Source: Variovorax sp.
GTDB taxonomy: Bacteria > Pseudomonadota > Gammaproteobacteria > Burkholderiales > Burkholderiaceae_C
DNA length: 64,000 bases
Reading direction: 5' to 3'
Assembly: GCA_017744935.1 (NCBI GenBank)
Contig: JAGIAI010000001.1
Span: forward strand, 124,001-188,000
Within the stretch, counting starts at the first letter, position 1, and each line of letters begins with the position of its first letter. A model generated the notes under the pieces. It did not search any database and had not been told where the DNA came from. It saw only the letters and a list, made by a program, of their open reading frames with translations. The position numbers and the translations under genes are program-made. Below, piece after piece: positions 5,200 through 23,910 of this stretch.

Positions 5200-5532
5200 T
5201 CATCCGCGTTCCTCGCTGTTCAAGGCCGCACGCAGTGCCTCCACCGCAACGGCCACCACAAGGCCGGTCAGGACGATTCCGCCAACGCCGAGCAGCATGG
5301 CCAGCACGCGGGCGAGTCCGGACTTGGGCACGAGGTCGCCATAGCCGACCGTCAGCCCGGTGACGAACGAGAAGTAGAGGCCGTCGGTCAGCGGCCACCC
5401 TTCCAACTTCGCGACGAGCAGTCCGACCAGCGGCATCAACACCAGCAGGCCCGAGAGCGCGGGAAAGACAATGGTCAGCCCCCGCCAAAGCTCGCGAAAG
5501 AACCGGCGCCGGATGATCCTGGATGCGTTCAT
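5200..5532 (-). CDS. Two-TM potassium channel family protein (Ion_trans_2-like)
   Basis: Selectivity-filter-like TGLTVGYGDLVPKS between two hydrophobic segments. Confidence 0.85.
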   Translation of the reverse strand: MNASRIIRRRFFRELWRGLTIVFPALSGLLVLMPLVGLLVAKLEGWPLTDGLYFSFVTGLTVGYGDLVPKSGLARVLAMLLGVGGIVLTGLVVAVAVEALRAALNSEERG

Positions 5533-11091: not shown

Positions 11092-12030
11092 CTATCTGGC
11101 AAGCACGATGCCGGACGCCGCCGAAGATACAGTGGTTCCCGCCTCGCCCGCAATGATTCTTTCCAGGTCCCCGAGCGCGCCGATCGCGGCGGTCTTCCCC
11201 GTCGCCTTCGCGAACCGGCAGGCCGCAGCCACCTTCGGCCCCATCGAGCCTGCGGGAAAGGTCATGGCCGAAAGCGAGTCCGGCGTCGCGCGGCGAATGG
11301 CGCGCTGCGTCGGCTTGCCCCAGTCGACATACACCGCGTCGGCATCGGTGAGCATCACGTACAGATCGGCCTTGAGTTCGCGCGCCAGCAACTCCGTGGC
11401 GAAGTCCTTGTCAATCACGCACTCCACGCCGCCGAGCTTGCGGTGAGCGCCCGCTTCATAGGCCGCGGGAATGCCGCCACCACCGGCCGCGATGACGATG
11501 GTGTTGTGCTCCAGCAGCCACTTGATCGGCCGCAGCTCAAAGATGCGCTTCGGCTCCGGCGAGGCCACCACGCGCCGCCATTTGTCCCCGTCCTGCTTGA
11601 AGACCCAGGACTTCTCGGCCGCGAGCCGATCGGCAACTTCCTTGGCGTAGACGGGGCCGATGAACTTGGTCGGGTTCGCGAAGGCCGGGTCCTTCGGGTC
11701 GACCTCGATCATCGTCAGGAGCGTCGCGAAGGGCCGCTCGAACGGCAGCAGGTTGCCCAGTTCCTGCTCGATCATGTAGCCGATCATCCCTTCGGTCTCC
11801 GCATCGAGCACATCGAGCGGATAGGTCTCCACGTCGGCGTAGGCCGCGCCCTGAAGCGCGAGCAGGCCCACCTGCGGGCCATTGCCATGGCCGACCACCA
11901 TGTCGTGCTGGCGCGCGACCGGCGCGAGCGCCCTGGCAGCGATGCGGATGTTCTCGCGTTGGTTCTCCGAGGTCATGGGCTGACCGCGTCGCAGCAGCGC
12001 ATTTCCGCCGAGCGCGGTGACGATGAGCAT
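11092..12030 (-). CDS. arcC: Carbamate kinase
   Basis: [17 protein letters not shown]...[16 protein letters not shown]...GGGGIPA...[15 protein letters not shown]...[10 protein letters not shown]. Confidence 0.96.
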
Positions 12031-12032
12031 GG

Positions 12033-13037
12033 TCAGTCTCCCATCGTCGCCACCAGGATGGCCTTGATCGTATGCATGCGGTTCTCGGCCTGCTCGAAGG
12101 CGATGTTGTATTCGGACTCGAACACCTCGTCGGTCACTTCGAGGCCGTTCTTGATGCCGTAGGTGTCGGCGATCTGCTTGCCGAGCACGGTCTCGCTGTC
12201 GTGGAACGCTGGCAGGCAGTGCATCAGCTTGACGTGCGGGTTGCCGCTGGCCTTCATCAGCTCAGAGTTGACCTGGTAGGCCTTCAGCAGGTCGATGCGC
12301 TCCTTCCAGACTTCCTTGGGCTCGCCCATCGACACCCAGACATCGGTGTGAATGAAGTCCACGCCCTTGACCGCCGCCTTCGGATCGTCGGTGACGGTGA
12401 GCTTGCCGCCGTAGCGCTTCTCCAGGTCGCGTGCAATGTTCAGGAATTCGTCGGCCGGCCAGAGCGACTTGGGCCCGCAAATGCGTACATCCATGCCCAT
12501 GAGGCAGCCCACGATCATCAATGAATGGCCCATGTTGTTGCGGGTGTCACCCATGAAGGCGTACTTGATCTCGTGGATCGGCCGGTCGCTGTACTCGCGC
12601 ATGGTCATCACGTCGGCGAGCATCTGCGTCGGGTGATATTCGTCCGTGAGCCCATTGAAGACCGGCACGCCCGCGTACTTCGCGAGCGTTTCCACACCAT
12701 GCTGGCTCGATCCGCGGTATTCGATCGCGTCATACATGCGGCCCAGTACGCGCGCAGTGTCCTTGAATGACTCCTTGTGGCCGATCTGCGAGCCCGCCGG
12801 GTCCAGGTAGGTCACATGCGCGCCCTGATCGTGGCAGGCCACTTCGAACGAGCAGCGCGTGCGCGTGGAAGTCTTCTCGAAGATCAGGCAGATCTGTTTG
12901 CCCAGCAGATGGCGCTGCTCGGTGCGCGCGTACTTGGCACGCTTGAGGTCGCGCGCCAGGTCGAGCAGGTAGCGGAACTCGCGCTGGGTGTAGTCCTGCA
13001 CGGTCAGCAGGGAGCGGTTGCGCAGATTGAAGCTCAT
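12033..13037 (-). CDS. arcB: Ornithine carbamoyltransferase (catabolic, ADI-linked)
   Basis: [20 protein letters not shown]...[14 protein letters not shown]...[11 protein letters not shown]; between arcA and arcC. Confidence 0.95.
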
Positions 13038-13054
13038 TTGAGTCTCCTGAAAGA

Positions 13055-14278
13055 TCAATACGCCGGGTCACGGGAGATCGGGCAGGTCATGCAATGACCA
13101 CCTCCTCGTCCGCGGCCGAGTTCCGCGCCACGCACGGTGATGACTTCGATCCCCGCCTTGCGCAGCAACGTGTTGGTGTGCGTGTTGCGGTCATAGGCCA
13201 CGACCACGCCGGGTTCGAGCGCGACGACGTTGTTGCCGTCGTCCCATTGCTCGCGCTGGGCCTGCCAGGCGTTGCCGCCGGTGTCGACCACGCGCATCTT
13301 CGGGATGCCCAGGGCCTCCTTGACGACATCGAACATGTGGCCTTTGTCCGCGCGGATGTCGAGCGTGTCGCCCTCCCCTGGCCGCACGCTGTAGCAGCGC
13401 ACCTGGTCGGACACCTCGCGGAATGCGGTGACGACTTCGCGGTCGCAGAAACTGAACACCGTATCCAGGTGCATCGCCGCGCGACTCTTGGGCATCAGGC
13501 AGCCGATCACGCGCTCGGCAGCCTTGTTCGCGAACAGTTGCTGCGCGACCTGGAACACCGCCTGTCGCGTCGTGCGTTCACCCATGCCGATCAGCACCAC
13601 GCCTTTTCCGATCGGCATCACATCGCCGCCTTCCATGGTCGATGCGCCGTATGGCTCGTCGGAATCGCCCCACCAGATCTTGAAATCCGCACCCTTGAAC
13701 CGCGGATTGAACTTGTAGACAGCGCGTTGAAGCAGCGTCTCGGGTTTGCGCGCGGGCCAGTACATCGGGTTGCAAGTCACGCCGTTGTAGATCCAGCACG
13801 ACGGGTCGCGCTGGAACAGGGTGTTCGGGATCGGCGGCAGCAGAAAGTCGGTGCCGCCCATGGCCTCTTCGAGCAGCGTCGACCATTCGCTCTTGGGCAC
13901 ATCGAGCACCGCTATGCCGCCGATCAGGTGCTCCGCAAGCTTTTCGGCCGGCATCTCGTCGAGCCACGCGCGCAGTTGCGATACGCCGAGCCCCACGTCG
14001 TTGAGAGTGATACGCCTGTCGAGCACCCATGCGCGGCCCTCGGAGTCCTTCAGCGCCTCGGCCAGCATGTCGTGCAGGTCGATGACCTCCACGCCGCGCT
14101 CGCGCATCTTGAGCACGAAGTCGTAGTGGTCCTTCTGCGCTTCCTGCACCCACAGGACGTCGTCGAACAGCAGTTCCTGCGCGTTCCCAGGTGTCAGGCG
14201 CTGGTGGGCGAGTCCGGGCCGACAGACCATGACGGTCCTGAGCTTGCCGACTTCGCTGTGTACTCCGAGCTTTTGCAT
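13055..14278 (-). CDS. arcA: Arginine deiminase
   Basis: [30 protein letters not shown]...[18 protein letters not shown]...[11 protein letters not shown]...[18 protein letters not shown]. Confidence 0.97.
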
Positions 14279-14298
14279 GATGAGTCTCCTTGTATGGG

Positions 14299-15204
14299 CT
14301 ATTCGGGCAAGGCCATGAGCTCGAAGAATTCGAGCGTCTCGCGATCCGGCTCCTTCAAATAGGTTCGGTAGATGGTGGGTAGATCGGGGGAGCGATAGAT
14401 GCGGCTCAAAGCCCGGTCCACCACGAGGCGGAACTCGTCGTCGTTGCGACGCACTGCAAACGCCATCAGTTCACGACGGAAGAGGCGATCGAGAACCACG
14501 AGGTTCGACTTTGACGCGTTGCGCCCAACCGCATCAAGCAACAGCGGACGTCCGTCGAAGAAGGCGTCGACTCGCCGATCGACCACAGCCTGCACACCTT
14601 CGGACGTGTCCGCAACGGAGACGACGTCGATTGCAATGCGACGCTGCGCAAGGCGGTCGACGAGCGCCCTTTCGACCACGGTTCCCTTGACCACCGCGAG
14701 CGAGCGCCGCTCCGGCGCACTGGTCCCGCGCCAGATCACTGCCTGGGGCGGCTCCTGCCCGGTCAGCACCTGGACCAGGCGCACCGGCGCATCCGAGCGG
14801 ATGACCGCGTTGACCCCGACGAACCCCACCGGGATCGAGAAGCTGACCTGCGCGCGGCGCTCCAGCGTGGGGACCGCGCCGCACAACATGTCGATCTTGC
14901 CGTCCGCCACTGCGCGGAAGCGGTCCTCCATCGAGACCTGAACGAGTTCGATGTTGAGCGCCGGCAGTTTCAGTTCCTGCTTCGCCGCATCGCCGACCTT
15001 CGTGCACAGCGCGATCGCGTAGCCGGTGACCTTGCCTGTCTCGTCCTTCTGCGTGAGCGACGAGCCGTCGGAGACATAGCCGACGACGAACTTGCCCGAT
15101 TCGCGCAGCTTGTCGAGCGTGCCCGCAGCCAACGCGGCGCCGGCATTGAGCAGTACCGCGCCGATGACCACGTGGAAGATATTCCGGGGTTTGAGGTATC
15201 GCAT
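14299..15204 (-). CDS. Amino-acid-type periplasmic solute-binding protein (orphan in this cluster)
   Basis: Signal peptide; [45 protein letters not shown], typical SBP_bac_3. Confidence 0.85.
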
Positions 15205-15218
15205 GGTCTTCCCTCCCC

Positions 15219-16547
15219 TTATGCAGCGCGAGCGCTTGCGATCCTGGCGGCAAAGCGCGGCGCGATGAAGCCGTAGATGATGAAACCGATCGCCATCACC
15301 AGCATGCCGCCGAGCACGGCGTCCTTGCCCGAGGCATAGAGCGCGTACACCGAATACAGCATTGCGATCACGGCAATGATCGCGTTGCGCCTGTAGATTC
15401 CAGGCTCGACGCCTGCATTGCGCATGATCACGAACAGCGCCGAGAGCGAGATGATGTAAGGCACCACGTTCGTCACCACCGCGAGATTCACGAGTGCGGC
15501 GAACTGCTTGCTGAGGTCTGGCGAGATCGTCGACAGCGCCATCACCGACTGCACCACACCCATGATCACCATGCCTGCGATCGGCGCACCCGCCGCGCTC
15601 GCCTTGCCGAAGATCGCCGGGAACATCTGGGTGTCGGCCGCATCCTTGGCGGTCTGCGCGAGCGTGAACTGCCAACCCAGCAGCGAGCCGACGCAAGCCA
15701 TCGCCGCCAGCGCCATGACGGTCTGACCGACCGCCGGGCTGAACATCTGCGTGTACGCGAGGCCGAACGGGCCGGTCGACTTGGCCAGATCGGCATTCGG
15801 CACGATGCCCTGGATCACCGTGGTCGAGAGGATGTAGATCACCGCCGCGCCCAGCGTTCCGAACATGCAGGCAAGCGGCACATCACGCTTGGGGTTCTCC
15901 ACCGCCGAGGCGTTCTGCGAGGCAGACTCCATGCCGAGAAAGGCCCACAGGGTCAGGGAGATGCTGGAACCCATGCCCTCTCCGATGCTCAGGCCCTTCG
16001 GATTCCACGCCGCCGAGAAGGTCTGGCTGCTGAACCAGAACCACCCCGCGATCGAGATGAAACCCACCGGCAGGATCACGCCCCACACCGTGATGGACCC
16101 GATGCGGCCGGTGAGCTTGGGCCCGCCGAAGTTCGCGACCGTGGTGATCCAAAGCAGCGCGACGACACCGATGCAGGTCGAGATCGCCGAAGACGTCAGG
16201 ACCGGAAAGAACGCCGCAAGGTAGCCCAGCGCGGAACTCGCCACCGCCACGTTCGCAATCGCGAGCGAGAGGAAGTAGAGAAAGAAGACGTTGAAGTAGC
16301 CGTCTTTCCCGTAAGCGTCCTCGGCATACGCCGCCATGCCGCCCGAGCGCTGGTTGAACACCCCCGCCTGCGCGAAGCTATAGGCAATCGCGAGCGAGCC
16401 GAGCGCCGTCACGATCCACGAGAGCAGCGAAATCGCGCCGACCTGCGCCATGTTGGCGGGCAGCATGATGATCCCGGAACCCATCATGTTGACCGTCACG
16501 ATGAAGGTCAACTGCATTACGCCCATCTTCTTTTCCTGAACGGCCAT
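15219..16547 (-). CDS. potE: Putrescine-ornithine antiporter-like APC transporter
   Basis: MGVMQLTFIVTVNMMGSGIIMLPANMAQVGAISLLSWIVTALGSLAIAYSFAQAG; adjacent to Orn/Lys/Arg decarboxylase genes. Confidence 0.85.
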   Translation of the reverse strand: MAVQEKKMGVMQLTFIVTVNMMGSGIIMLPANMAQVGAISLLSWIVTALGSLAIAYSFAQAGVFNQRSGGMAAYAEDAYGKDGYFNVFFLYFLSLAIANVAVASSALGYLAAFFPVLTSSAISTCIGVVALLWITTVANFGGPKLTGRIGSITVWGVILPVGFISIAGWFWFSSQTFSAAWNPKGLSIGEGMGSSISLTLWAFLGMESASQNASAVENPKRDVPLACMFGTLGAAVIYILSTTVIQGIVPNADLAKSTGPFGLAYTQMFSPAVGQTVMALAAMACVGSLLGWQFTLAQTAKDAADTQMFPAIFGKASAAGAPIAGMVIMGVVQSVMALSTISPDLSKQFAALVNLAVVTNVVPYIISLSALFVIMRNAGVEPGIYRRNAIIAVIAMLYSVYALYASGKDAVLGGMLVMAIGFIIYGFIAPRFAARIASARAA

Positions 16548-16599
16548 CGTCGTCTCCTTGGTTTGCTATCCGCGGGGTCCGCTCCACCTCCGTGCTGCG

Positions 16600-18975
16600 C
16601 TACTCGCGCACCACGTAGGTGTGGAAGCGGATGCGCCCGTCGGTTCCTCGCTCCTGGTACACACCCTGCACTTCGTAGTTGAAGCCCGGGAATCGGCTGA
16701 ACGACTCCTCGAACGCGCAGAAGTAGTCGCGCATCGGCTTCGCGCGTTCGTCCCAGCGCTCGCCCGGCGCCACGATGCCGATGCCCGGCGGATAGATCAG
16801 CGCCAGGGTTGCGGAAATGCGCCCTTGCGCTTCGGCGAGTGGCACGTAGTCCACCTCGTTGCCGACCAGCGCGCGGTAGGCGTCCTGCGGCAGCATCGCA
16901 AGCTCGGGAAAGCTGTCGGCGCGGAAGCACCGGCCCTGCAGGCCCTTGATGTTCGCGTCGCGGTAGAACGCATGCATCTCGTTGCAGACCTGGCGCAGCG
17001 TGTAGCCCGCGTAGCGCTCGGCATTCGCGGCGTGGAGTGACGGCAGCACGTCCTGCAGCATCGCGTCCTCGTCCCACAGGTTCTTGAATTTCACCAGCTT
17101 GGCGATCAGGCTGTTGAGCTTGCTTTCATCCTCCGCCGGCGTCATCAGGAAGAGGATGCTGTTGAGGTCGCACTTCTCCGGCACGATGCGCTGCTCGCGC
17201 AGGTAGTTCGCCACGACGGTTGCAGGCACGCCGAAGTCGAGGTATTCGCCAGTCGCCCGATCGATGCCCGGCGTCAGCAGCATCAGCTTGTTCGGGTCGA
17301 CCATGGCGTAGCCGTTCACATAGCCGGAATAGCCGTGCCAGCGTGATGCCGGGTCGAAATTCCAGCACTGCTGCTCGCGCTTGATGACGTCGGTGGCAAG
17401 GCTCTCCCACGGCACGTCGCTCACATCGCCAATGAAAGGCGAGCCCTTGATGGTCACGCGGTCCGGCACGAAAGGATCGAAGAACCACTGCTCTTGCGCA
17501 TTGCGCCCGGTCTGCGAAAAGTGCCGGCCGAACTCGCGCAGCTTCTTGCGGGTCTCGATGCCGAGTTCGATGCAGCGGTCCCACAGCATCTCGCCGGCCT
17601 TGCCTTCGTGCACCTTTGCGTTGACGTCGAGCGACGCGAACAGCGGATAGAACGGCGATGTCGAGGCATTCATCAGGAACGACTCATTGAAGCGCTGATG
17701 ATTGACGTAGCGCTGCTGCCCGATGAGGTGATCGTCGCGTTTGTGGATCTGGCTGGCCTGCGAGAAGCCCGCGCCCTGCTTGTGCACCGATTGCGTCGAG
17801 AACAGCCCGGGCGCATTCGCATCCAGCTCGCCCAGCCGCATCGGGCTGTGGTCGTTGAACAGGGGGTGGAAGGCGTTGTAGCCGATCCATGCCTCGTCCC
17901 ACAGCACGTAGTCGCACAGGTGGCCTATGCGCTCCAGCACCTTGCGCACGTTGTAGACCGTTCCGTCGTAGGTCGCGAGCTGGATGCAGGCCAGGCGGAA
18001 CGGGCGCGGCTGATCGGCGCGCGCCTTGTCTTCGACCAGCGGATGCAGGCGAATGCGCTCGCGCAGCGAAGCCTCGTCCCATGCGTCCCAATCGACGGCA
18101 CCGATCATCCCGAAGGAGTTGCGCGCGGTCGGCAGGAACACCGGCACGGCGCCCGCCTGCACCAACGCGCCCTGATGCACCGACTTGTGGTTGTTGCGAT
18201 CGAACAGCACGAGATCGCCGCGGCGAAGCAGCGCATTCGCGACGATCTTGTTCGATGTGCTCGTGCCGTTGAGCACGAAGTAGGTCCGGTCCGCGCCGAA
18301 CACCTGTGCTGCATGTCGCTGGGCCTCGTCGGCCGCGCCTTCATGGATCAGCAGGTCGCCGAGTTCGACATCCGCGTTGCACAGGTCGTTGCGAAAGATG
18401 CTTTCGCCGAAGTGCTTGAAGAAGAGCTGCCCGGCGGGCGACTTGCGATAGAACTGCCCGCCTTGATGCCCTGGGCAGTCGAAGGCGATGGTCGCCTTGC
18501 CGTCGTAAGCCATCAGCTTGCCGAAGAACGGCGGCAACAGCGACATGCCGTACTTCACCAGGCTCGCGCCGATCTGCTTGGCGTAGAACTCGGGCGACTG
18601 CTGGCCGAGATAGACATAGCCTTCGACTTCACCGAGACCCGCCACCACGGGCACGTCGGAGATGCGCCGCGAATCCGCGAGGATCCACACCGGCGTGCGG
18701 AAGCCCACGCCGCGCAACTCACGCATCAGCGTGCGCGCCTTCTCCAGCATGTCGCCGTCGACCCAGAGGATGTAGGCGCCGACGCTCGCGTCTTCGGCGA
18801 GGTCGCGCTGGTAGACGCCCGACACCTCGAGTTCGAGGCCGGTCGCGGCGATGCGGGCCAGCAAGTCCCTTGTCTGCAGGTTGTCGGGGTCGACGATGGC
18901 GACGACCTTCAGGTACTTGTGCAGGGGGATCGGAATCGCCTGCGGTTGCAGCGAATAGTTGGCGTAGCGGTTCAT
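16600..18975 (-). CDS. Orn/Lys/Arg decarboxylase, ornithine decarboxylase (SpeC/SpeF)-like
   Basis: Wing domain, AFDCPGHQGGQFYRKSPAG, QSVHKQGAGFSQASQIHKRDDHLIGQQRYVNHQRFNESFLMNASTSPFYPLFASLDVNAKVHEG. Confidence 0.93.
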   Translation of the reverse strand: MNRYANYSLQPQAIPIPLHKYLKVVAIVDPDNLQTRDLLARIAATGLELEVSGVYQRDLAEDASVGAYILWVDGDMLEKARTLMRELRGVGFRTPVWILADSRRISDVPVVAGLGEVEGYVYLGQQSPEFYAKQIGASLVKYGMSLLPPFFGKLMAYDGKATIAFDCPGHQGGQFYRKSPAGQLFFKHFGESIFRNDLCNADVELGDLLIHEGAADEAQRHAAQVFGADRTYFVLNGTSTSNKIVANALLRRGDLVLFDRNNHKSVHQGALVQAGAVPVFLPTARNSFGMIGAVDWDAWDEASLRERIRLHPLVEDKARADQPRPFRLACIQLATYDGTVYNVRKVLERIGHLCDYVLWDEAWIGYNAFHPLFNDHSPMRLGELDANAPGLFSTQSVHKQGAGFSQASQIHKRDDHLIGQQRYVNHQRFNESFLMNASTSPFYPLFASLDVNAKVHEGKAGEMLWDRCIELGIETRKKLREFGRHFSQTGRNAQEQWFFDPFVPDRVTIKGSPFIGDVSDVPWESLATDVIKREQQCWNFDPASRWHGYSGYVNGYAMVDPNKLMLLTPGIDRATGEYLDFGVPATVVANYLREQRIVPEKCDLNSILFLMTPAEDESKLNSLIAKLVKFKNLWDEDAMLQDVLPSLHAANAERYAGYTLRQVCNEMHAFYRDANIKGLQGRCFRADSFPELAMLPQDAYRALVGNEVDYVPLAEAQGRISATLALIYPPGIGIVAPGERWDERAKPMRDYFCAFEESFSRFPGFNYEVQGVYQERGTDGRIRFHTYVVRE

Positions 18976-18979
18976 GAAG

Positions 18980-21244
18980 TCACCCCTCCTTCACGCAATC
19001 GACCAGCCAGTGCCTCCCTCCATTGCGGTCGATCTCGAACCGGAGCCCGTGGATGTCCGCTTCGAAGCCCGGGAACCGGTCGTCCGCATCGCGCGCAAAC
19101 TTCAGGTACTCGACGATCGAATCGGTGCTGAATCGCTCGCCGGGCATGATGAGCGGAATGCCCGGCGGATATGGCACCAGCATCACCGCCGCGATGCGGC
19201 CCTTGAGCGCCTCGATCGGCACCGGCTCCACGCGCCCATGCACCAGCCGGTCGTACGCCTCGGCGGGGATCATCGCGGGCTCCGGCAGCTCGGTGTACAT
19301 CGCGTTCATTGCACGCGCGGTGTCGTTGTCGCGATAGCAGCCGTGCAGCGCCTCGCAGAGCTCGCGCAGGCCCATGCCCTTGTAGGTAGCGCCACCCGCC
19401 GCGTGCACGCTGGGCAGCACGCGCGACAGTGGTGCGTTGTTGTCGTAGTCGGTCTTGAAGTCCACCAGCGCATCGACCATCGTGGTCCATTTGCCGCGCG
19501 TGATGCCGAGCGAAAACAGGATCAGGAAGCTGTAGAGGCCGGTCTTCTCGACCACGAGGCCGCGCTCCCAAAGGTACTTGGTCACGATCGATGCCGGAAT
19601 GCCGCTCTTGCCCAGCTTTCCACCCGCACCCAACCCAGGCGTGAGCAGCGTGACCTTGATCGGGTCGAGCATCACGTAGTCGCTCGCCACCTTGCCGAAG
19701 CCGTGCCATTCGGCATTCGGCGCGAGCACCCAGTCGGCAGTCTTCGGCGGCTTCTTCAGGTCGAGCTTTTCGGGCTGCCAGACCTGGAACCACCAGTCGC
19801 GCTTGCCCAATCCCTCGCCCACCGAAGAAAGTGCATGGCGGAAGTTCATCGCTTCGTCGTGCGTCTCCTGCACGATGGAGCGGCCGGCCGCTCCTTCCAT
19901 CATCGCGGCGCTGACATCGAGCGACGCGATGATTCCGTAGTGAGGCGAGGTCGACCCGTGCATCATCAAGGCGTCGTTGAAGCGCGTCGTGTCGATCTTG
20001 CGCTTGTCGGACTCCTGGATGTGGATCATCGACGCCTGCGAGAACGCGGCGAGCAGCTTGTGCGTGGACTGCGTCGCGAAGACCAGCGTGTGGTCCGCAC
20101 GCGGATGGCCGCGCGGCACGCCCATCGCATGGCGGCCCGAATAGAACTCGTGGAAGGCCGCGTAGGCATACCATGCCTCGTCGAAATGCAAGGCGTCGAC
20201 CTGGTCGGTGACCTTCGCCTTGATCATCTCGGCGTTGTAGCAAAGGCCGTCATAGGTGGAATTGGTGACCACCGCGATGCGCACCTGCCCTTTGTGCCCG
20301 CGTGCGATCGGGCTCGCCGCGATGCGCTTGCGCATGGCCTCGGGCGTGAACTGGTCGAGGCTGATCGGGCCGATGATCCCGTAGTCGTTGCGCGAAGGCG
20401 TGAAGTAGACCGGCGTCGCGCCGGTCATGATCAGCGAGTGCAGCAGCGACTTGTGGCAGTTGCGGTCCACAGCCACGAGGTCACCGCGCCCCGCCATCGA
20501 ATGCCAGACGATCTTGTTGGCGGTCGACGTCCCGTTGGTGACGAAGTAGGTGTGGTCCGCGCCGAACACGCTGGCGGCATAGGCCTCGGCCTCATTGACC
20601 GGCCCCGTGTGATCGAGCAGCGAGCCGAGTTCGGGCACCGAGACCGAGAGATCGGAGCGCAGCGTGTTCTCGCCGAAGAATTCGTGCAGCGCGAAGCCCA
20701 CTGGCGACTTGGTGAAGCCGATGCCGCCCGCATGTCCCGGCGTGTGCCATGAATAGGCCGAGCGTTCCGCGTGGGTCACCAGCGCCTTGAAGAATGGGGG
20801 CAGCAGGTTCTCCAGGTACTCCGTTGCGGCGCGCATGATCTGCCGCGCAAGGAAAGGCACCGTGTCCTCGTAGAGATAGATGATGCTGTGCAGATGGCGC
20901 AGCGCCTCGACCACGGCCGCACTGCCCTTCTCCAGTGCGGCCGATTCGCCGAGCGCGATGATCGGCAACAGCGGCGCGCGTTCGTGCACCTTGTGCATCT
21001 CGTCGATCAGGCGCTTGAGCAGGTCCGCATCGCCGCGCGCCGGCTCCGCACTAAGAACGATCGCGGACAGTCCCCTGTGCGCACCGGCGACGATGCCGGC
21101 ATCCGACTGGTGCGCGACCGCGATCGTCTTCCAGCCATGACGCTCGAGCTCGTCCTGGATCTGACGGATGCGCACGCCGGCGACCGAGGGCGCACCGACG
21201 TCCCGATGCGCGATGAGGATCGGGAAGCTGGACTGGAACTGCAT
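18980..21244 (-). CDS. Orn/Lys/Arg decarboxylase, lysine/arginine decarboxylase (LdcC/AdiA)-like
   Basis: SAYSWHTPGHAGGIGFTKSPVG, ATQSTHKLLAAFSQASMIHIQ, MMHGSTSPHYGIIASLDVSAAMMEG. Confidence 0.93.
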   Translation of the reverse strand: MQFQSSFPILIAHRDVGAPSVAGVRIRQIQDELERHGWKTIAVAHQSDAGIVAGAHRGLSAIVLSAEPARGDADLLKRLIDEMHKVHERAPLLPIIALGESAALEKGSAAVVEALRHLHSIIYLYEDTVPFLARQIMRAATEYLENLLPPFFKALVTHAERSAYSWHTPGHAGGIGFTKSPVGFALHEFFGENTLRSDLSVSVPELGSLLDHTGPVNEAEAYAASVFGADHTYFVTNGTSTANKIVWHSMAGRGDLVAVDRNCHKSLLHSLIMTGATPVYFTPSRNDYGIIGPISLDQFTPEAMRKRIAASPIARGHKGQVRIAVVTNSTYDGLCYNAEMIKAKVTDQVDALHFDEAWYAYAAFHEFYSGRHAMGVPRGHPRADHTLVFATQSTHKLLAAFSQASMIHIQESDKRKIDTTRFNDALMMHGSTSPHYGIIASLDVSAAMMEGAAGRSIVQETHDEAMNFRHALSSVGEGLGKRDWWFQVWQPEKLDLKKPPKTADWVLAPNAEWHGFGKVASDYVMLDPIKVTLLTPGLGAGGKLGKSGIPASIVTKYLWERGLVVEKTGLYSFLILFSLGITRGKWTTMVDALVDFKTDYDNNAPLSRVLPSVHAAGGATYKGMGLRELCEALHGCYRDNDTARAMNAMYTELPEPAMIPAEAYDRLVHGRVEPVPIEALKGRIAAVMLVPYPPGIPLIMPGERFSTDSIVEYLKFARDADDRFPGFEADIHGLRFEIDRNGGRHWLVDCVKEG

Positions 21245-21271: not shown

Positions 21272-22651
21272 CTAGAAGGTGACCTTGGTCGAGAACTGCA
21301 GGCGCGAGTCCGGTTCCGATCCGCCGTCCTTGTTCTCTCGTCGGCCCCAGATGTATTCGAGGCCGGTCGTGATGTTCTTCTGCAGGTTGTAGAGCAGGTT
21401 GGCCGATGCGTAGCTGCCCTTGCGGAAGGCGCTGCCGAGCTGGCCGTCGGTGTTGCTCTGCCGATGCTCGCTGTAGCCGATCGCGCTGGTCCACTGCGCG
21501 TTCCACGCGTGGTTGTAATAGAGCAGCCAGGCGGTCGACGGCACGGTCTCGGCGCGCAGGAAGGCATTCGGTGCAAGGTCCACGCCGCCGTCGTTCGCAT
21601 AGCTCGCGATGGCCTTGCCGTAGGCCGCCTGCCAGGTCAGCGAATCCTTGCCACCGAGGAACTTGAAGGCGCCCGAGAGGTTCAGCCCGTAGCCGGTCTG
21701 ATGGCCCGAGGGGTTACCGCCCGGCGTGTTCACGAACTGGTAGCCCACCTGCCGCACCATGCCGGCCGCGCGCACATGGCCCCAGTCGCGATCGAGCCGG
21801 AACGACGCGATCGCATCCGGCGTGCGGTTCCAGGGCTGCACGCCGACACCGAAGGCCGGGTCGACTTCCGTGAGCTTGCCGGTGTCGAGCGCCGAGTTCG
21901 GCGCCTCGAGCGACAGCGCGACCTTCATGCCATCGCGATCCAGCGGGGTGTAGCGCAACTGCGGATTGCGCAGGAACATCATGCCGCTCGGTCCCCAGTA
22001 GTCGATCGTGTTCGGGAACACGTCGATGTCCATGAAGTTCGAGTAGTACTGCCCGACGCCGATCGCGCCGAGTTCGCCCCACACGTTCAGCCAGTGGACG
22101 TGGGTGCCACCGTCTGTGCCGAAGAGGTCGAAGCTCACGTCGGTCTTGATCTGGCCGTAGGTGGTCGGGATGAAGCTCTTGAAGCCGAGGCTCGACTGCC
22201 TCACGCTGAAGGTGGTCGCACCGTCCTTGCCGCAGCCCGGATCGCCCGGGCAGTTGACCGGGATCTGCGAAGGCCTGAGCGTCGCACTCCACTGCGGGTT
22301 CATGCGCTTGGCGTCATAGATCGCGTCGAGCATCACCTGCCCGTAGAACTCGACGCGCGCCTTGTCCGCGTCCGGCGCGTTCTCGTCGGGCAGCGAGCGC
22401 GGCGCGACCACCACGGCGCCGACCGGTGCACCCGCCGGTGCCGCTGCTGCGGCCGCGGGCTGCGCCGCTTGCGCAGGCTGGGCCTTCTGCTGCCGCTCCA
22501 GCGTTTCGACACGCCGCTGCATGTCCTCGATCGTCTTCAGGGCTTGCTGAAGCTGGGCCTTCAGTTCATCGACCTGCGGGTCGGCTGCGTGGGCCATGGG
22601 CAAGGCCTGCACGCTACCGACGACCGCCAGAGTCCAGAGCGATTTCCTCAT
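21272..22651 (-). CDS. DcaP-like outer-membrane porin
   Basis: Signal peptide, coiled-coil VDELKAQLQQALKTIEDMQRRVETLERQQ, Ala/Pro linker, beta-rich body ending SRLQFSTKVTF. Confidence 0.8.
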   Translation of the reverse strand: MRKSLWTLAVVGSVQALPMAHAADPQVDELKAQLQQALKTIEDMQRRVETLERQQKAQPAQAAQPAAAAAAPAGAPVGAVVVAPRSLPDENAPDADKARVEFYGQVMLDAIYDAKRMNPQWSATLRPSQIPVNCPGDPGCGKDGATTFSVRQSSLGFKSFIPTTYGQIKTDVSFDLFGTDGGTHVHWLNVWGELGAIGVGQYYSNFMDIDVFPNTIDYWGPSGMMFLRNPQLRYTPLDRDGMKVALSLEAPNSALDTGKLTEVDPAFGVGVQPWNRTPDAIASFRLDRDWGHVRAAGMVRQVGYQFVNTPGGNPSGHQTGYGLNLSGAFKFLGGKDSLTWQAAYGKAIASYANDGGVDLAPNAFLRAETVPSTAWLLYYNHAWNAQWTSAIGYSEHRQSNTDGQLGSAFRKGSYASANLLYNLQKNITTGLEYIWGRRENKDGGSEPDSRLQFSTKVTF

Positions 22652-22732
22652 GACACCCCCTTCAATGTGGAGTTGACAGTTCGCAGTCGACCAGTGTTCG
22701 TCGGCTTGCGATGATAGGAATCGCTACTCAAC

Positions 22733-22774
22733 AGTCATTAGCACGGCAGGACAATTTGTTGGCGCATTGGGACA
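22733..22774 (-). promoter_or_regulatory. Candidate AraC-type ArgR/OruR operator: two direct half-sites with 21-bp period
   Basis: Minus strand TGTCCC-N8-AA-N5-TGTCCT-N8-AA-N5, between regulator gene and porin start. Confidence 0.6.
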
Positions 22775-22830
22775 GAGCGGCCTGTTTTGCACACCAAGTG
22801 CTTCGCGCTCCGGCCGCGACGGCAGCAACA

Positions 22831-23910
22831 TCAGTCGTTGTGCACCGCGTCATGGGCACGGCCGAGGCCGCGCACCGCCATCCACTCCGAAGCCGTCATG
22901 CCGAAATGCCCGCGGAACCAGCGCGAGAACTCGGCGCCCGAGGCAAACCCGAGCAGTTGCGCGACCTCGTAGCAAGTGCGCACGCCGCCGGTGAGGTAGG
23001 ACTGCGCGAGTTCGGCGCGAACGCTTTCGATCACCGTCGACACGCTGTCTCCGGTGACCGACAGCTGGCGATTCAGCGTGCGCCGGTGCGTGCCCAGGTG
23101 CTTCGCGATGCGCTCGACCGAGCAGGTTCCGCTGGGAATGAGCACGCGGGCAACCTGCCGGACACGATCGAGCGGTTCGTCCTTCGATTCGGTGAGCTGC
23201 CGGTCCAGCCATCGCTTGAGCGCATGGCCTAGCTCGGGATCGGCCTGAGGGATCGGCCTGTCGAGATCGCGGCTGCGGCAGACGATGGCGTTGAAGGGAT
23301 GCAGGAAGTCGACATGCGCACCCAGCACCCGCTTGTGGACGTCCAGGCTGCGCGGCCGCCCATGGCCGAAGCAGATGCTGACCGGATCGAAGTCGTCGTG
23401 CGTCAATGCACGCAGCGTGCCCAAGGTAATGCCGGCTGCCATCTCGATCCCCTGGCGCGACGTGCCGTGCTTCTGCAACCTGAGCTGCAGGAAGACCATC
23501 GTGAACTGGCCCATGTCGTCCATCCACAGGCGAAGGCCACCGTTCTGCACGCACATGTAGCGGGCCAGCGATTCGAGCGCGGCGCGCAACGTCGGCTCCT
23601 CGCGCAGCACCGCGGCGAGAACGCCGAGGTTGCTGATCCGGCGCGTCTCCGCAAGCAGCAGCCCGAAGGCCTCCTGGCCCGATTCGCGCGCCGACTCCTC
23701 CAGCAGCGTGGCCACCGAATCGACGCTGATCAGCGTGTCTTTGTCGGAGAGCATCGCGGGCGGCAGGCCAGCCGCCTTCATCATGCGAACAGGATCGAGG
23801 CCGACCGAACGGGCCAGCGCGTCGTAGCCCGTCAGGGTCGCGCCCCGCGTCAGGTGGCCCGTCGCCTGCGACTTCTCGTCGCGAAGCTCGAGCGCATCAA
23901 GGCGACGCAT
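22831..23910 (-). CDS. AraC family regulator with arabinose-binding-type N-terminal domain (OruR-like)
   Basis: Arabinose_bd-like N-terminus; C-terminal HTH SVERIAKHLGTHRRTLNRQL...YEVAQLLGFASGAEFSRWFRGHFGMTASEW. Confidence 0.88.
   Translation of the reverse strand: MRRLDALELRDEKSQATGHLTRGATLTGYDALARSVGLDPVRMMKAAGLPPAMLSDKDTLISVDSVATLLEESARESGQEAFGLLLAETRRISNLGVLAAVLREEPTLRAALESLARYMCVQNGGLRLWMDDMGQFTMVFLQLRLQKHGTSRQGIEMAAGITLGTLRALTHDDFDPVSICFGHGRPRSLDVHKRVLGAHVDFLHPFNAIVCRSRDLDRPIPQADPELGHALKRWLDRQLTESKDEPLDRVRQVARVLIPSGTCSVERIAKHLGTHRRTLNRQLSVTGDSVSTVIESVRAELAQSYLTGGVRTCYEVAQLLGFASGAEFSRWFRGHFGMTASEWMAVRGLGRAHDAVHND

Follow-up and report, generated by a model that had tools for sequence, protein, structure and literature searches.

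The tandem repeat upstream of a porin gene in the window (the whole 64-kb stretch of Variovorax sp. DNA analysed here) is predicted to be a real and conserved operator of a known kind. It is very probably the class-II AraC/XylS-type operator of the adjacent PF12625 activator, from which a porin-led operon would be driven. The sequences themselves supply the site, its conservation, a fixed -10 register and its recurrence beside related regulators.

A conserved tandem repeat between regulator and porin

The minus-strand repeat described in the first-pass annotation was found to be exact on re-reading: from 22774 to 22733 it runs TGTCCCAATGCGCCAACAAAT and then TGTCCTGCCGTGCTAATGACT, with a period of 21 bp (Table 1). 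Both flanking genes lie on the minus strand, which places the repeat after the regulator gene and before the porin in the direction of transcription. The two genes are co-directional, with the regulator upstream, while related loci are usually divergent. The window contains the pattern TGTC-N10-AA-N5-TGTC-N10-AA once, and none of 100 dinucleotide-preserving shuffles contains it. Across the 6.0-Mb genome it has two exact occurrences, against about 0.1 expected at 66% GC, and if one mismatch is permitted there are 25 matches versus 8 for a reversed control pattern. The other exact copy (C85:76542-76578) points at a flavin monooxygenase gene and has a further PF12625 AraC regulator on its other side, so that searching the genome without bias for the first-pass motif led to a second regulator of the same domain type.

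Table 1. Features of the operator region and of the downstream gene run in the window.
Feature	Position	Strand	Remark
AraC-family activator (predicted), PF12625 + HTH_18	22831..23910	minus	first recognition helix THRRTLNRQL
Distal half-site TGTCCCAATGCGCCAACAAAT	22754..22774	minus	sequence read directly; TGTCCCAA and AACAAAT invariant in five orthologues
Proximal half-site TGTCCTGCCGTGCTAATGACT	22733..22753	minus	overlaps predicted -35; 21-bp period common to sites beside related regulators
-35-like hexamer ATGACT	22733..22738	minus	part of sole promoter-like match in 22600-22900
-10 hexamer TATCAT	22711..22716	minus	58 bases after first T of operator
Porin, DcaP-like, PF19577	21272..22651	minus	first gene after operator
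Orn/Lys/Arg decarboxylase, AdiA/LdcC-like	18980..21244	minus	below all equivalog cut-offs
Ornithine decarboxylase, SpeF-like	16600..18975	minus	NF010092 above cut-off
Putrescine-ornithine antiporter, PotE-like	15219..16547	minus	NF007938 above cut-off
Solute-binding protein family 3	14299..15696 (listed ORF)	minus	true start near 15207
Arginine deiminase ArcA	13055..14278	minus	profile match
Ornithine carbamoyltransferase ArcB	12033..13058	minus	profile match
Carbamate kinase ArcC	11092..12030	minus	profile match

Orthologues of the regulator are present in Variovorax sp. Sphag1AA (L049, 91%), Variovorax sp. YR216 (L050, 86%) and two further genomes of the genus (L140, 81%; L141, 78%), and the tandem site before the porin is kept in all four. 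The first-pass annotation had staked its reading on conservation of the TGTC and AA positions in orthologous promoters, and these are retained: among five sequences including the window, 28 of 37 columns are invariant in the site versus 3 of 68 upstream (36/42 versus 2/59 in a comparison of three sequences).

The adjacent regulator

The regulator belongs to the PF12625 (OruR/QhpR/GliR-like) subfamily of AraC/XylS proteins, with an N-terminal PF12625 (Arabinose_bd) match of 134 bits and a C-terminal HTH_18 match of 52.5 bits. PF12625 and HTH domains were the only ones returned by the domain search, a DJ-1-like domain being absent. The best NCBIfam models, QhpR (157.7 bits against a cut-off of 250 for NF049968) and GliR (115 bits), both score below their equivalog cut-offs. 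QhpR and GliR share the domain layout of the window protein, as does OruR, a PF12625-type AraC regulator. The ChIP motif of GliR, YYGGCGHTDTYSGMC, differs from the window operator, and an OruR operator was not found in the literature searched.

At least eight further PF12625 proteins are encoded in the host genome. Three 68%-identical paralogues with the same first recognition helix (L142, L143 and L144) have no such operator nearby; L143 also holds a short fragment of one more regulator copy. Beside a 56% relative (L145), TGTCCC tandem sites occur on both sides of the gene, at 5383 (-) and 6620 (+), one before a hydrolase and the other before dioxygenase-like genes.

Promoter geometry and a possible mechanism

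Between 22600 and 22900 a single promoter-like match was found, ATGACT-16-TATCAT, which lies on the correct strand for the porin; its -35-like hexamer is weak. The -10 hexamer keeps its position in the window and the four orthologues (TATCAT, TATCAT, TATGAT, TAAGAT and TAAGAT). Sites beside related regulators show the same register: among 18 independent sibling sites, a set from which the window site and its orthologues were left out, the -10 lies at offset 59 in 14 and at 58 in 4, with a mean score at the shared offset of 1.35 versus -5.6 (sd 1.3) for the background. This offset also suits the window and its orthologues, TATCAT occupying the place of the 14. The site thus has in its sequence the marks of a class-II AraC/XylS operator, namely two direct repeats about 21 bp apart, the proximal one at the -35, and a fixed -10.

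Such a layout is known from XylS/Pm and CphR, where two head-to-tail half-sites are followed by a fixed -10, the proximal half-site lies at -35, and every monomer uses two helix-turn-helix units to read a single repeat (PMC5481539, PMC6205950). Like the window site, these operators consist of a box A and a box B in two head-to-tail repeats with a 21-bp or similar period, and the CphR repeats at -69..-55 and -49..-35 match its geometry; unlike it, their boxes read TGCA-N6-GGNTA and their effectors are aromatic. The XylS and CphR regulators are not known to be of the PF12625 type.

The layout matches XylS/Pm and CphR, and a model with one activator monomer per repeat seems applicable here; regulator binding, activation, transcript length and ligand are inferences. 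Two monomers would bind head to tail on the repeat, the first helix-turn-helix of each reading TGTCC and the second the AA-side box. The proximal monomer would abut or overlap the -35 region and, when bound by ligand, recruit RNA polymerase to the -10 hexamer. The porin and the co-directional genes behind it (the decarboxylases, the antiporter, arcABC and beyond) would then be switched on from that promoter. A cationic amino acid, or some product of one, is the probable ligand.

The gene run behind the porin

That the porin-led run holds arginine and ornithine genes is borne out by the profile matches of the SpeF-like, PotE-like and arcABC products. The ORF listed for the solute-binding protein extends into the antiporter gene, and its true start was therefore placed near 15207. 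Elsewhere, the genome has a second arcA (59% identical); at 11092-21244 the ornithine decarboxylase/PotE pair is joined with a second arginine deiminase pathway in one gene run. Of 100 other genomes searched from the genus, only 5 have a close relative (over 75%) of the ornithine decarboxylase.

This module follows the regulator, site and porin in the window, L050, L140 and L141, that is, in four of the five orthologous loci. In Sphag1AA (L049), about 10.2 kb from the first decarboxylase to arcC are absent at 12607-12641, and the regulator, site, porin and flanking genes remain. Conversely, in locus L147 the porin and the complete arginine module are present, but regulator and site are both missing. 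Module and regulator are therefore separable. L147 also carries three TTGACG-N3-CTCAA palindromes, at 16612-16625 (-), 16664-16677 (+) and 17897-17910 (+), where 0.08 were expected for the pattern searched. One of them is just upstream of the porin, and Anr/FNR-like control is possible there. In the window, neither the porin nor the arc promoter has a good Anr/FNR box, and matches within the operon were discounted, having two mismatches each and lying inside genes.

The same site type beside related regulators

In the protein tree, the window regulator and all regulators with TGTCCC sites fall in one clade of 41 rows (98/96), which share ancestry and are not fully independent. Beside 41 related regulators TGTC-N17-TGTC has 25 matches in 21 loci, versus 0-7 (typically about 2) for TGTC pairs at other gaps from 4 to 40, and with relaxed criteria a related repeat is seen next to most clade members. 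After strand correction, nearly all sibling sites lie between the regulator and a divergent neighbour and point into the neighbour; L038 is co-directional like the window. A matrix built from the 18 independent sites (L029 and L030, whose repeats read TGTCAA, were omitted) ranks the window site first among about 128,000 positions, with a score of 9.7; the siblings score 25-47 except for L040 at 9.2. An AraC-type tandem operator fitting the adjacent regulator, the central proposal of the first-pass annotation, is thus upheld as a sequence prediction by conservation and by spacing-specific enrichment beside related regulators. Counting against it are the score of the window site, well below those of most siblings, the weak -35-like hexamer, the three 68%-identical paralogues that lack the operator, and the co-directional position of the regulator gene.

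The first recognition helix reads DRRT in 17 of 17 regulators with TGTCCC sites and HRRT in the window protein, and VCRT relatives have TGGC-type distal boxes (Fisher p ~0.001 for helix against distal box, ignoring shared ancestry and on hand-counted rows). For PF12625 at large (47 loci), TGTC-N17-TGTC shows only a modest excess (5 versus 1.9), and the operator code is therefore not universal in this family. The genes at the sibling sites, named by reading their sequences, encode BKACE (DUF849), Bug/TctC-type receptors, porins, an acyl-CoA dehydrogenase, a carboxymuconolactone-decarboxylase-like protein and a monooxygenase (BVMO); no arginine genes are among the targets beside sibling sites, those of L145 included. 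Text searches of the literature (TGTCCCGAAA with AraC; OruR operators; BKACE/AraC) returned no description of the motif.

Comparison with ArgR and alternative explanations

The published ArgR box reads TGTCGC-N6-G-N-AA, repeated with a 5-bp spacer (PMC10963909). CdhR, GbdR, SouR and ArgR have similar half-sites with the same 21-bp period, and the N-terminal domain of CdhR and GbdR is DJ-1/PfpI-like (PMC5806209). The likeness to the Pseudomonas ARG box drawn by the first-pass annotation stands for the tandem TGTC and AA, the 5-bp spacer, the 21-bp period and the association with arginine genes. It breaks down within the half-sites, where base 5 is C and not G and the internal G is replaced by C in both, and neither conforms to TGTCGC-N6-G-N-AA. 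ArgR has a DJ-1/PfpI-like (GATase-1-like) N-terminal domain, whereas that of the window regulator is PF12625. Unlike ArgR, the window motif gives no sign of a genome-wide regulon, the second of its two exact genomic sites lying beside a different regulator. The window site appears to resemble the ARG box in architecture only. Reading the match as evidence for an ArgR-type system, or for arginine, finds no support, given the PF12625 regulator, the non-ArgR bases and the same operator type at non-arginine genes. The operator alone does not make arginine the signal, because the same site type adjoins related regulators of quite different genes; arginine or ornithine as the effector is plausible from the gene context in four of five orthologous loci.

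A true ArgR-like circuit, in which the adjacent regulator responds to arginine or ornithine by activating the whole porin-decarboxylase-arcABC run, shares the operator model preferred here and differs by naming the ligand and the regulon. We give it slightly less than an even chance. The ornithine decarboxylase, PotE and arcABC genes, their place behind regulator, site and porin in the window, L050, L140 and L141, and the ARG box spacing of the repeat all argue for it, and they have to be set against the regulator subfamily, the C at base 5, the sibling sites serving BKACE, Bug, porin, acyl-CoA dehydrogenase and BVMO genes, and the separation of module from regulator and site in L049 and L147.

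Binding of the site in trans by another regulator, for instance a GATase-1-type ArgR homologue or another PF12625 paralogue, is improbable. The similar half-sites and common period of CdhR, GbdR, SouR and ArgR (PMC5806209) and the number of PF12625 proteins in the genome would allow it, but the regulator next to the site carries the RRT helix that accompanies TGTC boxes, the two stay together in all five orthologues, and the 56% relative L145 likewise adjoins two such sites. Chance similarity without function would account for most of the 25 one-mismatch genomic matches, probably; for the window site it is hardly credible in view of the footprint conservation, the fixed -10 register and the spacing-specific enrichment beside homologues.

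Implications for the PF12625 AraC subfamily

The operator reading favoured here may extend to a wider proposal, which we regard as evenly balanced: a Burkholderiales clade of PF12625 AraC regulators would have a common, apparently undescribed code, (TGTCCC-N8-AA-N5) twice with a -10 58 bases after the first T. Its distal box would track the first recognition helix (D/H-R-R-T with TGTC; V-C-R-T and similar with TGGC), and genes and ligands would vary freely. In the window lineage the code would be coupled to an ornithine-decarboxylase and arginine-deiminase module that is elsewhere found without it. The motif points well to a clade-wide code but poorly to the ligand; when operators match across AraC subfamilies, what is revealed is binding architecture, not the ligand. 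Genomes with the regulator but no module, or the reverse, offer natural experiments in how control of an arginine/ornithine module was gained or lost. For a large and little-studied AraC subfamily the finding provides a testable regulator-operator-promoter unit, and a motif with fixed promoter spacing may allow target prediction beside many such regulators.
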